Virus record (IMG/VR): IMGVR_UViG_3300005288_000027
Location: 1-30,977 of that record
Reading direction: 5' to 3' (one strand)
From: a virus
DNA length: 30,977 nt
Part shown: positions 6,024 through 30,977 of the stretch, piece after piece
Position numbering within the stretch: position 1 is the first letter of the stretch
How the letters are laid out: each line of letters begins with the position of its first letter
The notes under the pieces: model-generated
Seen by the model: only the letters and a program-made list of their open reading frames with translations
Databases searched by the model: none
Told to the model about the DNA's origin: nothing
Made by a program: the position numbers and the translations under genes

Positions 6024-6713
6024 TTACTCCTGCAGATTTTCAAATGAGAGACCACCCTCTTCCCGCCCATCGGGGCCGTCCGTCCGGGGAGCCGGATTGA
6101 CCGCATCGGGAAATGGCGCATCTGGGTAAGTGCCGGTAGGGTCAAAAACGTTGGTCAGGTCGTCAGTGACTTCGACCGAATCGAGCGGACCGATGGGCTG
6201 AACAGCCGCCACTTCAGCAGCTGGATCAAACGGCGGAACCGGTACAGGACCTTCGAGCGGATAAAAGTCCTCCGGGCCCTGGTAAAACTCCATACCAACA
6301 TCCATGACCAGCTCACCCAGCTGCTGTTCGCCGTCACCATCCTCTTCCATGGTGGAGCGGATGAAGGGGAACTGCTGTAGGCGGCTCATCAGTGGCGGGA
6401 AGTTGATCAGCGCCATTTCAATCTGACGCTGCATGCCCTCCAGTGCGAGGATCATCGCGCTGGCTGCGGCGTTTCGTGGAAGTGCCTTCAGCTGGACTCG
6501 GGCGGAAATCCGAATTGTTGCCGTCACGGTGTATTGAGGCCCGCCATTTCGGCCCAATGACTCCTTGAACTCTTCCGGAGAGTGCAGCCAGATAATCGGG
6601 TAGCTGCCATTCCAGGTTGGCCAAGACCGTGCAGCAAAAACATTATCGCCAGCAGATGTACTGGCTTTGAGTGCTTCTGCCGTTATCTGCCGCAATTGGG
6701 AAGTGGTGGTCAT
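6024..6713 (-). CDS. Putative tail terminator/completion protein
   Basis: I do not recognise this 229-residue protein with certainty. Residues 1-135 look like a compact alpha/beta domain (TATIRISARVQL, then LEGMQRQIEMALI), as in small tail-terminator or Mu gp37-like proteins. Residues after about 145 are proline- and acid-rich and look disordered. Its place between the head-tail joining gene and the DUF2635/sheath pair is where tail terminators sit in such clusters. It overlaps the preceding gene by one base. Confidence 0.55.
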   Translation of the reverse strand: MTTTSQLRQITAEALKASTSAGDNVFAARSWPTWNGSYPIIWLHSPEEFKESLGRNGGPQYTVTATIRISARVQLKALPRNAAASAMILALEGMQRQIEMALINFPPLMSRLQQFPFIRSTMEEDGDGEQQLGELVMDVGMEFYQGPEDFYPLEGPVPVPPFDPAAEVAAVQPIGPLDSVEVTDDLTNVFDPTGTYPDAPFPDAVNPAPRTDGPDGREEGGLSFENLQE

Positions 6714-26327: not shown

Positions 26328-26597
26328 GTCAGACGTGACCCAGCGACGTACCGGCATGCCGGTGGTGAGAAAGCTAAACCGTCGACCATGCCAGCTCTGG
26401 AACTGGCCGGACTCCCACATGGAGGACGCGAAGCAGCACAGCCACCCGTAACAGCATCGAACACGAAATGTGCGACGACGGGGAGTGGTGGGGAAACCCG
26501 GCTGACGTGCAGCGAGATCGAACTACCGAGGACTCCTCGGGTGTTCAGCCCAGCCGACCGTGGCCAGTAACGGAGGCACGAAACACCGGAATTTTTC

Positions 26598-26639
26598 ACT
26601 GATGCACCTGGTTGACCGGGTGCATTGGGAAAACAACCG
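26598..26639 (+). repeat. Leader element copy A (before the LuxR-type gene)
   Basis: The element has hairpin arms TGCACC and GGTGCA, then ACAACC. Copy B at 26975-27016 is the same in 34 of 42 bases. Each copy lies just before a gene start. Confidence 0.65.
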
Positions 26640-26652
26640 AGAGGTAAACAGT

Positions 26653-26958
26653 ATGGAATCGACAATCAAAAGCGGCACATGGATCGGCCATCTCGGCCGA
26701 GGCCTGGCGCGACGAGAGCTCCAGTTTTTGCTGTCAGTTGCCCAAGGCCTGACCGCCAAACAGATAGCCAGGGCGTTCGATGTCGAGCCTGGGACGGTGG
26801 TCAAGCGGATATCCAACGCCATGTTCAAGCTGGGCGTTCACCGCCAGACCGCACTGGTCGCCGAGGCGATGCGCCGAGAAATAATCGTTGGCCTGGCTGA
26901 CTGCCCGAATCCTCAAGGCCCAGCTGGGGAATCTACTGATGGTGTTTTTATCGCTTAA
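26653..26958 (+). CDS. LuxR-type helix-turn-helix regulator
   Basis: The 101-residue protein consists mostly of a LuxR/GerE DNA-binding domain (about residues 18-75): LARRELQFLLSVAQGLTAKQIARAFDVEPGTVVKRISNAMFKLGVHRQTALVAEAMRR. There is no sensor domain. It is the first gene of the plus-strand early operon, after the boxA leader, where lambda has N. Regulation of host or phage genes is likely; the target is not known. GAGAGG lies before the start. Confidence 0.8.
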   Translation: MESTIKSGTWIGHLGRGLARRELQFLLSVAQGLTAKQIARAFDVEPGTVVKRISNAMFKLGVHRQTALVAEAMRREIIVGLADCPNPQGPAGESTDGVFIA

Positions 26959-27800: not shown

Positions 27801-27875
27801 ACAACCAGCGCCACGTCAGCCTGACGAAAACTGCCCGACACCTCGAAAGAGGCTGCATCGGAATGTCGGCGGGTC

Positions 27876-27995
27876 ATGAAAAAAGCATCTCCAGAGCAAT
27901 CAGAATGTGGCGAATACCCGGACGTCGATTGCAGAAAATGGTGTGGACCGACATTCCAATGCAGCTTCAATAGGTGGCCACTGCCTGCCCAGTGA
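27876..27995 (+). CDS. Possible 39-residue cysteine-containing small protein
   Basis: A frame from ATG at 27876 to TGA at 27995 reads MKKASPEQSECGEYPDVD, then CRKWCGPTFQCSFNRWPLPAQ. Its four cysteines are spaced C-x8-C-x3-C-x5-C, which could bind metal. The ribosome site is weak (GGCGGG). It lies in the right direction in a gap of the operon, so it may be real; it is not a family I know. Confidence 0.35.
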   Translation: MKKASPEQSECGEYPDVDCRKWCGPTFQCSFNRWPLPAQ

Positions 27996-28861: not shown

Positions 28862-29170
28862 ATGGCCAAGAGCAACGCGGACATTCAGAAGGACAAACGC
28901 GCCAAGGAGCGTGCCCTGCTGGATCGGATCGGCGCCGAGAAGCGCACGCTGATTGTGTCGAAGGCGCTTGCTGATGCACTTGAGGTGCTGGGCGAGCGTC
29001 ACGACTTCGAGGAATGGCAGGAGACGGTGTCGACGCTGCTGATCAATCTCGCCGTCGCACCTCCCGAAGAGTCCGCCCGCTTTTCCACCATGTCGCGACC
29101 TGAAATCGTCATCACCGATAAGCAGTCGCGACAGCTTGAAGAATTCGCCAAGACCGGCATCGAAGCATAA
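28862..29170 (+). CDS. Small charged protein upstream of the DGR (102 residues)
   Basis: From ATG at 28862, with AGAGG upstream, the product begins MAKSNADIQKDKRAKERALLDRIGAEKRTLIVSKALADALEVLGERHDFEEWQETVSTLLINLAV. The N-terminus is basic and helical; the LIVSKALADALEVLGERHDFEEWQE stretch has the look of a ribbon-helix-helix or short repressor fold. I do not know the family. It ends 15 bases before the first DGR target, so it is probably co-transcribed with it and might regulate it. Confidence 0.6.
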   Translation: MAKSNADIQKDKRAKERALLDRIGAEKRTLIVSKALADALEVLGERHDFEEWQETVSTLLINLAVAPPEESARFSTMSRPEIVITDKQSRQLEEFAKTGIEA

Positions 29171-29185
29171 CCAACGAGGTATCAC

Positions 29186-29794
29186 ATGAAACCCGAAATG
29201 ATCACCCTGAAGCACGGCGACGCCACGATCAAGATGCCGGCTTCTTCGCTGGCAAAGTTGGCAGTAGCGAGCGTGTTCGCTCAGGTTCTGCCGCCGGCCA
29301 ACGTTCAGCCGATCAATGCTTACTCGGTGCCCGCTCTTGGCGCTGAGTGGCCAGGCCAAGGTGGTTTCAACGGCGGGCTGGTAGCTGCTCGCGGCGATGT
29401 CCCAGCGCACTACCTGATCATCGCAAAAAAGGACGTCGGCAGCCTTGAGTGGGGCGGACGCGGAGTTGAGTTGAAAGGCCTCAGCAAGACCGATGGCTAC
29501 ACCAACACGCAGGTGCTGATTGGCAACGACGACGAGAGAAAGTATCCAGCAGCCGATGCCTGCGCCGAGTACCAAGATGATGACCATCACGACTTCTACC
29601 TGCCGGCCTGCGCCGAGCTGTACCACTGCTGGGTTAACGTGCCGGAACTGTTCGCAAAGGACTGCTACTACTGGTCAAGTTCGCAGCGCTCCGCCACCTA
29701 CGCATTCCTCATGAGCTTCGATGATGGCATTCAGCTCATCACCGACAAGGACGACGAGCTCCGTGTCCGCCCCGTCCGCAGATTCTTTATTTAA
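29186..29794 (+). CDS. DGR variable protein 1 (DUF1566 / C-type-lectin-like fold)
   Basis: The 202-residue protein has an N-terminal part (1-70) without signal peptide, then a DUF1566/FGE-like C-terminal domain: AADACAEYQDDDHHDFYLPACAELYHCWVNVPELF and CYYWSSSQRS. The last 40 residues hold the variable repeat (Tyr162 to Arg198). Residues that would vary are 165, 171, 172, 173, 175, 177, 179, 184-187, 189 and 190. They lie on the ligand face in known DGR lectin folds. Such proteins display a mutable binding site. ACGAGG precedes the start. The N-terminal part is not similar to that of the second target. Confidence 0.85.
   Translation: MKPEMITLKHGDATIKMPASSLAKLAVASVFAQVLPPANVQPINAYSVPALGAEWPGQGGFNGGLVAARGDVPAHYLIIAKKDVGSLEWGGRGVELKGLSKTDGYTNTQVLIGNDDERKYPAADACAEYQDDDHHDFYLPACAELYHCWVNVPELFAKDCYYWSSSQRSATYAFLMSFDDGIQLITDKDDELRVRPVRRFFI
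29669..29781 (+). repeat. DGR variable repeat, copy 1 (VR1)
   Basis: This 113-nt stretch at the end of variable protein 1 aligns without gaps to 30366-30478. The copies differ at 20 positions, and 93 are the same. Seventeen of the 20 differences have A in one copy. Outside the gene the sequences diverge at once. Confidence 0.9.
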
Positions 29795-29825
29795 TCCTTC
29801 ATTCATCCGTTCTTGATCCGGCACC

Positions 29826-29846
29826 GGGCGCAGCAGCGCCTTTTTT
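29826..29846 (+). terminator. Hairpin with T-run after variable protein 1
   Basis: GGCGC and GCGCC surround the loop AGCA and are followed by six T residues. It looks like an intrinsic terminator; it might also be the hairpin that DGRs keep downstream of the variable repeat. Confidence 0.7.
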
Positions 29847-29873
29847 GTTGCCTTCGAAAAAAGAGGAAAGACC

Positions 29874-30494
29874 ATGTCCGCAGTAGCTCAAGCAGCACCA
29901 GCAGTGACCATCCCTGAAATCGGCCAGGCGTTCGGCGGCGGATTCTTCAGCGGCATCACCCGTGACCCGGACACCGGCAAGCGCTACCTGAACATCACTG
30001 CCGGCGCCGAGCACGAACTCAGCGGGACCTGGGGCGAGTACGGCGAGAAGACCGAAGGTGCCGACAGCTTCACCAACAGCCGGACCAACACCGAAGCCAT
30101 GGCAGCGGCTGGCAGCAAACTGGCGCAGCAGGTGCTGGCTCTGGATATCGGCGGCTTCAACGACTGGGCGATCCCAGCGCGTGACGTGCAGGAGCTGCAA
30201 TACCGCCACTTCAAACCGACCACCGAAGCGAACTGGCAGTACGGTCGCAGCGGTGACAACCCGAACAGCGAGCCTGTTGGCCTGCTGCACACCGAAGAAT
30301 CTCCAGTGCAGACCACATTGGCCGCCTTCCAAGCTGGCGGCGCCGAAGCCTTCAAGCCAACCTGGTACTGGTCATCTTCGCAGCGCTCCGCCCACACCGC
30401 GTTCTTCATGCTCTTCGTTGATGGCATTCAGAACTACCACGCCAAGAACAACGAGCTCCGTGTCCGCCCCGTCCGCAGTCAATTGATTGATTAA
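29874..30494 (+). CDS. DGR variable protein 2 (DUF1566 / C-type-lectin-like fold)
   Basis: The 206-residue protein begins MSAVAQAAPAVTIPEIGQAFGGGFFSGITRD and has the DUF1566-like core GGFNDWAIPARDVQELQYRHFKPT, then WYWSSSQRS. The variable repeat covers Tyr165 to Arg201; variable residues are 168, 174-176, 178, 180, 182, 187-190, 192 and 193. There is no signal peptide. GAGGAAAG precedes the start. Its core differs from protein 1 outside the repeat, so this is a second, independent scaffold carrying the same repeat. Confidence 0.85.
   Translation: MSAVAQAAPAVTIPEIGQAFGGGFFSGITRDPDTGKRYLNITAGAEHELSGTWGEYGEKTEGADSFTNSRTNTEAMAAAGSKLAQQVLALDIGGFNDWAIPARDVQELQYRHFKPTTEANWQYGRSGDNPNSEPVGLLHTEESPVQTTLAAFQAGGAEAFKPTWYWSSSQRSAHTAFFMLFVDGIQNYHAKNNELRVRPVRSQLID
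30366..30478 (+). repeat. DGR variable repeat, copy 2 (VR2)
   Basis: This is the partner of VR1, offset by 697 bases. The final 26 bases (30453-30478, GAGCTCCGTG...CCGCAG) are GC-rich and the same in both copies, which fits the initiation-of-mutagenic-homing element at the 3' end of DGR repeats. After the repeat both genes share TTATTTAATCC. Confidence 0.9.
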
Positions 30495-30508
30495 TTTGCT
30501 TATTTAAT

Positions 30509-30526
30509 CCGGTCGCTTGCGGCCGG
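30509..30526 (+). other. Hairpin downstream of VR2
   Basis: CCGGTCGC and GCGGCCGG can pair over eight positions (one G-T) around two bases. No clear T-run follows, so it is less like a terminator and more like the structured element that stimulates homing in other DGRs. It lies 30 bases after VR2. Confidence 0.5.
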
Positions 30527-30548
30527 TTGCTCTTGGAGAGCGAGCCTT

Positions 30549-30905
30549 ATGGCGATGCACACGGATTTGCAGATCTACAAAGTTTCGCTGGGCCTGCTCC
30601 AGATGGCCACGAACCTCACCCGCAACATACCGCGCGACCTGAAGCAGTCTCTCGGGAAACGCGTCATCGATGAGTGTATCGACGTACTGATGTTGATCGC
30701 ACGAGCCAATGCGACGCCTGACAAGCGCCCACACCTGACGTTGCTGGTCGAGAAGGTCCAGGTGATCGAGTTCCTGATGCGGCTTTTCAAAGAGAGTCGA
30801 TTCATCAGCATCACGCAGCACGCCACCGCGATTGAGGTCACCACCTCAATTGGCAAACAGGCCAACGCCTGGAAACGTTCCACCCCAACCGCGCCCGCCA
30901 CCTGA
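30549..30905 (+). CDS. avd: DGR accessory protein Avd (four-helix bundle)
   Basis: The 118-residue protein has the all-helical, basic pattern of Avd-like / four-helix-bundle proteins: TDLQIYKVSLGLLQMATNLTRNIPRDLKQSLGKRVIDECIDVLMLIARANATPDKRPHLTLLVEKVQVIEFLMRLFKESRFISITQHATAIEVTTSIGKQANAW. Avd forms a pentameric barrel that binds the DGR reverse transcriptase and the template RNA and is needed for cDNA synthesis. GGAGAG precedes the start. The order target-target-avd fits a DGR; template repeat and reverse transcriptase should follow outside the window. Confidence 0.85.
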   Translation: MAMHTDLQIYKVSLGLLQMATNLTRNIPRDLKQSLGKRVIDECIDVLMLIARANATPDKRPHLTLLVEKVQVIEFLMRLFKESRFISITQHATAIEVTTSIGKQANAWKRSTPTAPAT

Positions 30906-30977
30906 GAGTTACGGCTTTCAGGTCTGTGCGAATTGAATCTGGTCGTGCCGCTGACCTCTGGGTCACCGCCATGCGCA
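30906..30977 (+). other. Right edge: sequence after avd, template repeat not reached
   Basis: The last 72 bases show no similarity to the variable repeats and no clear gene. In many DGRs the template repeat starts within a few hundred bases after avd, so it should lie just beyond the edge. Confidence 0.5.

Follow-up and report, generated by a model that had tools for sequence, protein, structure and literature searches.

Left part of a probable two-target diversity-generating retroelement in a temperate Pseudomonas myophage

Introduction

Close to the right end of the window (the whole stretch of DNA analysed here, a complete linear viral record of 30977 bases) two consecutive genes end in the same repeat and are followed by an Avd-like gene. 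The question is whether these genes belong to a diversity-generating retroelement (DGR), in which a reverse transcriptase (RT) copies a template repeat (TR) into the variable repeats (VRs) of target genes. We consider it very probable (roughly 0.95) that the window holds the left part of a working DGR of a temperate Pseudomonas myophage. Since the window is the whole record, no sequence to the right of 30977 can be read, and the window's TR and RT are cut off rather than shown to be absent.

The phage is a temperate myophage. A tail sheath (PF04984, 9.4e-23) and a tail tube (PF10618, 2.6e-39) are encoded in the window, in agreement with the preliminary description, and further genes include capsid, portal, terminase, integrase, and an S24-type repressor. 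The host of the related loci from the genome collection is Pseudomonas in 45 out of 45.

Target Genes, Repeats and Avd

The features of the locus, with VR coordinates given for the repeat cores, are as follows.

29186..29794, + strand: target gene 1, 202 aa, with a C-terminal Lcl_C/DUF1566-like domain, ending in VR1 (PHROG 4245, 1.6e-29)
29681..29781, + strand: VR1 core, 12/31 template adenines changed and 0/70 other bases (p 1.2e-7)
29874..30494, + strand: target gene 2, 206 aa, with a predicted C-type-lectin-like fold, ending in VR2 (PHROG 4245, 4.2e-31)
30378..30478, + strand: VR2 core, 12/31 template adenines changed and 0/70 other bases
30549..30905, + strand: avd (accessory variability determinant), 118 aa (Pfam bAvd 46.8 bits, cut-off 40; PHROG 3206, 4.9e-31)
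30889..30977, + strand: 5′ half of an RT-15 RNA (RF03018), 83.6 bits against a gathering threshold of 82, model positions 1-92 of 192, cut by the record end

The gene following the targets is Avd-like, as had been proposed: it scores above the Pfam cut-off and matches a PHROG annotated as the Avd protein of DGRs. Its score with the NCBIfam model DivGenRetAVD is 49.3 bits, below the cut-off of 80.

The two repeat copies (29669-29781 and 30366-30478) are 113 nt long, align without gaps, are identical at 93/113 positions, and lie 697 nt apart. The constant 3′ 24-mer of the repeat occurs exactly twice in the window, where 0 occurrences are expected, and a repeat search of the whole window found no third VR. 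The preliminary description had treated the full 113 nt as the repeat and counted 20 variable positions. Both the shared gene ends and the 20 differences stand, but homology to the template, for which we used the TR of the nearest relative (L003) as reference, starts only at repeat position 13. The VRs are thus the 101-nt segments 29681-29781 and 30378-30478. Positions 10-11 fall outside the TR/VR, and the 18 differences in the core all lie at template adenines.

Both targets share the initial 12 nt of the 113-nt repeat and the template does not, which would suit ordinary paralogy, i.e., duplicated lectin genes with gene conversion maintaining the likeness of their 3′ ends and no retroelement involved. 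We give this explanation almost no weight. It is already refuted by the adenine pattern (18/18 core differences on template adenines), the two proteins are strongly different outside the repeat, and Avd, TR, RT, and RT-15 are all present in relatives.

Template Repeat and Reverse Transcriptase in Relatives

A search with the Avd protein recovered 80 IMG/VR viral loci, several of them with an Avd 96-98% identical to that of the window, and 45 Pseudomonas genome loci were added. The record L003 is 97% identical to the window over avd and the leader, and fully identical to it over the 72 nt after avd. It continues into a third copy of the repeat, the TR, +516 nt from the avd start and ~160 nt past the avd stop, with A at every variable core position, and directly after the TR into an RT of ~390 aa. 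The placing of an adenine-bearing TR and a DGR-type RT to the right of avd, beyond the window end, is thereby borne out in a relative. Projected from L003, the window's TR core would lie at 31077-31177 and the ATG of the RT at 31117. The last 89 nt of the window are not empty: they belong to the RT-15 RNA and thus probably hold the structured leader of the template RNA.

An RT (RVT_1) was present in 15/15 relative records tested. Its best solved match is 8ub7 (1.8e-35; "Reverse transcriptase" in the match table), which we take to be the BPP-1 DGR reverse transcriptase. The group II motif is QGxxxSP, and the relative RT carries IGNLSSQ in its place. Judged by such sequence comparisons, the RT of the relatives is of the DGR type. 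Of 129 sequences scanned for TR and VR content, 99 combine a single TR with two VRs; in 19 others the single TR is accompanied by three VRs. A single TR serves all targets within each relative genome, as had been suggested for the two targets here. The reading as a DGR is supported by the TR and RT of the relatives together with the window's own Avd and adenine-specific VR differences.

Loss of both TR and RT from the several kb beyond avd, the outcome that would speak against a DGR, is absent in the relatives, except in L044, L050, and L053. There (6518-6620) the TR is cut after ~35 nt and joined to an unrelated small gene, while the targets, avd, and the RT-15 region are kept; an RT was not found in these three loci. 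They look like frozen DGRs in which TR and RT have been replaced. In Pseudomonas phage D14O (L132, 3501-4047) avd is kept together with a weak match to RT-15, which at 72 bits falls short of the gathering threshold; a TR/VR repeat was not found in this phage and no RT is annotated, and the locus resembles a decayed DGR.

The window could be such a remnant, both targets and avd having survived while the phage's TR and RT were deleted or replaced, so that the VRs no longer change. The three close relatives show exactly this state, D14O has avd and a weak RT-15 with no detected TR/VR repeat or annotated RT, and the intact start of RT-15 in the window is compatible with it since L044, L050, and L053 also keep that region. 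We nevertheless think it very unlikely: the TR is kept in 122 searched loci and was not found in 5, the RT was present in all records tested, and the nearest relatives of the window (L003, L007, and L004) are intact.

Adenine-Specific Change and Natural Rewriting

When VRs were compared with TRs across the 80 loci, 2210 of 4819 cells at template adenines were changed, against 74 of 10836 at other bases. The template adenines lie mainly in AAC/AAT codons, which cannot turn into stops, and among 140 distinct VRs a single one has an in-frame stop. The number of amino-acid combinations within reach is about 10^17.

No near-identical partner of the window itself was found for a comparison of activity; the best pair consists of a viral record (L048) and Pseudomonas proteolytica DSM 15321 (L093). 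Over the 3328 nt common to the two there are 21 differences, 13 in VR1 and 8 clustered in the 3′ part of the RT. All 13 VR1 changes fall at TR adenines, VR2 and the TR are without change, and the 1508 aligned bases flanking the two repeats are identical. One target alone has been rewritten, and these VR1-only adenine changes show that mutagenic retrohoming takes place in nature, one target at a time. The pattern, seen in a pair of database sequences, is the footprint of a recent event of this kind in a relative. The 8 differences in the RT could stem from recombination or from a second copy of the prophage. Other pairs, with flanks differing by 3.5-5.5%, differ at 12-20 of the 31 VR adenines and at no more than 2 of the 70 other VR positions. 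In L019 (6517-6629) it is the TR itself that differs from that of L003, by 7 adenine changes and 1 change elsewhere, as if a mutagenized copy of the TR had been written back into it.

RT-15 RNA and the Template

RT-15 is an Rfam family named only for its proximity to reverse transcriptases, and it was reportedly described in Weinberg 2017. The literature searched, with that original description outside its scope, yielded no paper linking RT-15 to DGRs. In relatives the RNA spans the 3′ end of avd to the first bases of the TR. It is found in every intact locus tested, including L118, L119, L121, L125, and L127, whose Avds are no more than 50-54% identical, and the locus of Burkholderia phage Magia.

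The structure covaries in relatives. Across 41 sequences 93.3% of cells pair, and both partners change in 23 of 56 pairs; cells with double-sided change number 154, against 43.8 in shuffles, and slid structures are 33-41% paired. The leader is 83% identical, compared with 45% for avd fourfold sites. In the multi-helix junction, UCGUGC and GCACGA form the outermost helix, which closes immediately ahead of the TR and itself covaries, appearing as UCGAGC/GCUCGA in L120, L121, and L123.

On the other side of the TR, the RT frame opens within the repeat, with an in-frame ATG at TR position 53 or 56 in 74/74 loci; in 37 of these 74 there is no other ATG, GTG, or TTG among RT codons 3-27. There is thus no non-coding spacer between TR and RT. 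A spacer-like RNA fold 3′ of the TR, in the RT gene, was considered and rejected: RNAalifold was positive with 49 close relatives, and 40 diverse sequences gave 11 pairs, 2 of them compensatory.

In phage BPP-1, RT-Avd is recruited by a structured spacer that lies 3′ of the TR (PMC12875486). By analogy, RT-15 may do this job from the opposite side of the TR. We put forward only tentatively, and with some doubt, the combined proposal that RT-15 is a DGR template-RNA scaffold lying 5′ of the TR (opposite to BPP-1) and closing with a helix directly ahead of it, in a cassette that diversifies early-region proteins other than tail fibres.

In the DGR proposed here, RNA running from the 3′ end of avd through the RT-15 domain and the TR would be the template. 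If the system works as in BPP-1, an RT-Avd complex would copy this RNA into cDNA with random bases opposite template adenines, and this cDNA would take the place of the 3′ end of one or the other target gene (mutagenic retrohoming). Two lectin-like targets, three in some relatives, would share a single template, each being rewritten independently.

Two hairpins follow the VRs, and their proposed role would also be that known from BPP-1.

29825..29845, + strand: hairpin and T-run after VR1 (GGCGC-AGCA-GCGCC, then TTTTTT), kept in relatives, terminator-like or a DGR hairpin/cruciform
30509..30526, + strand: hairpin 30 nt past VR2 (CCGGTCG-CTTG-CGGCCGG), candidate retrohoming cruciform, with one T.G mismatch in the window

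The hairpin after VR2 was found in 70/78 loci, nearly all at the same place, with compensatory versions in L033, L042, L058, and L067. Published DGR hairpins/cruciforms have a 7-10 bp GC-rich stem and a 4-nt GRNA loop. The VR2 hairpin has a 7-bp GC-rich stem, mismatched once in the window, and a 4-nt loop that is mostly CTTG, while the VR1 stem is only 5-6 bp; the 4-nt loops do not fit the GRNA consensus.

Target Proteins

With Pfam Lcl_C (PF07603) the two targets score 23.7 and 30.5 bits (6e-5 for target 1). These scores are below the curated cut-off of 34.9, and we therefore call the targets Lcl_C-like rather than members of the family. Target 1 has a profile match to the C-terminal domain of Legionella Lcl (8q4e, 2.8e-5). 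An AlphaFold2 model of target 2 (pLDDT 85.8, pTM 0.86) has the same domain as its best PDB fold match (E 4.4e-4), and the weaker model of target 1 (pTM 0.69) gave 0 significant matches in the fold search. The lectin-like context first noted thus holds by predicted fold for target 2 and by sequence profile only for target 1, and both probably carry a C-terminal domain resembling that of Lcl. An attempt to name a target function from the fold led to a lectin-like fold only; related viral models in that search include both tail-fibre-like and stand-alone proteins. At a guess, the targets might bind a variable ligand.

Genomic Setting and Cassette Mobility

Fourteen relatives carry a tail marker, and in these the DGR is separated from the tail-sheath gene or the J-like gene by 15-43 kb of linear contig, or by 7-21 kb around the circle. 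In phage Cruim01 an SSB, an endonuclease, and a methyltransferase are encoded nearby. A homologue of the DGR targets, orf68 of phage D3 (L133, 6001-6561), lies just downstream of the cI repressor, and the part of D3 inspected there has no annotated RT.

Among 49 records, the cassette accompanies a sheath gene in 6 and a J gene in 21, and in no record does it occur with both markers. The two types are interleaved in the avd tree, and the closest avd to that of the window comes from a J-type phage. The backbone relative L013 is 94-96% identical to the window over the repressor region and 79% over the DGR, and the left edge of the homology block frequently falls at 29169-29176, immediately ahead of target 1. 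These observations together indicate that the cassette is exchanged as one block among phages whose tails differ. Such mobility weakens the usual tail-fibre role for the targets, though it may still apply.

Two other regions of the window lie upstream of the cassette. A 21-nt inverted repeat, 90% complementary (27849-27869 and 27948-27968), sits inside a 390-nt intergenic gap, and an Rfam scan of 27849-27968 gave 0 families at threshold. The start of a LuxR-like HTH gene is found at 26587-26871 with a leader that reads FSLMHLVDRVHWENNR in one frame. This leader matches twice in L004 and L009, and a similar leader precedes the third target of L064; it is possibly a shared upstream control element.

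Comparison with Known Systems

The locus shares with the prototype BPP-1 DGR (mtd-avd-TR-brt) the order target-avd-TR-RT, adenine-specific diversification, and a C-type-lectin-like target, and the RT of Bordetella phage BPP-1 is the closest solved match of the relatives' RT. It differs in having two or three targets rather than one, a TR that overlaps the RT start with no spacer, a TR and VR that share their whole A-free 3′ end, a hairpin loop that is not GRNA, and a covarying RNA domain 5′ of the TR where BPP-1 has its structured spacer on the 3′ side (PMC12875486).

A 2012 survey described two-VR DGRs, among them that of Pseudomonas fluorescens WH6, as well as TRs that extend into one end of the RT; its DiGReF group 3 is defined by a TR that overlaps an end of the RT ORF (PMC3521204). 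WH6 resembles the present system, by that description, in having two VRs in one Pseudomonas DGR, and WH6 and group 3 are probably of the same lineage as the window DGR. Burkholderia phage Magia (MT701587) has two consecutive VR-bearing genes, avd, RT-15, TR, and RT, there in the early region, and the annotation given by its depositors names an Avd-like protein, an RT, and a potential DGR target with a lectin fold. Its Avd is 47% identical to that of the window and its targets are smaller. The Bacteroides phages Bacuni F1-F4 also carry a DGR with two target genes, but one target is remote from the core and the host is unrelated; host tropism correlates with the VR in these phages (PMC8143477).

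Given the published multi-target phage DGRs, the known TR/RT overlap, and the Magia annotation, the preliminary description correctly recognized a known kind of element from a truncated record. The less usual features are a covarying RNA domain on the 5′ side of the template (3′ in BPP-1), the position of the targets more than 15 kb (linear) from tail markers, and the sharing of the cassette by myophages and siphophages.

As a DGR, the locus is one addition to a large known group, real but ordinary. The lineage is common in Pseudomonas (45 genome loci) and occurs in the isolated phages Cruim01 and Magia, which makes two questions testable. The first is how a DGR is primed with no spacer between TR and RT and with a conserved RNA fold upstream. 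The second is what a phage would gain from diversifying small (~200 aa) lectin-like proteins encoded away from the tail genes, when the cassette carrying them passes between phages with contractile tails and phages with non-contractile ones.
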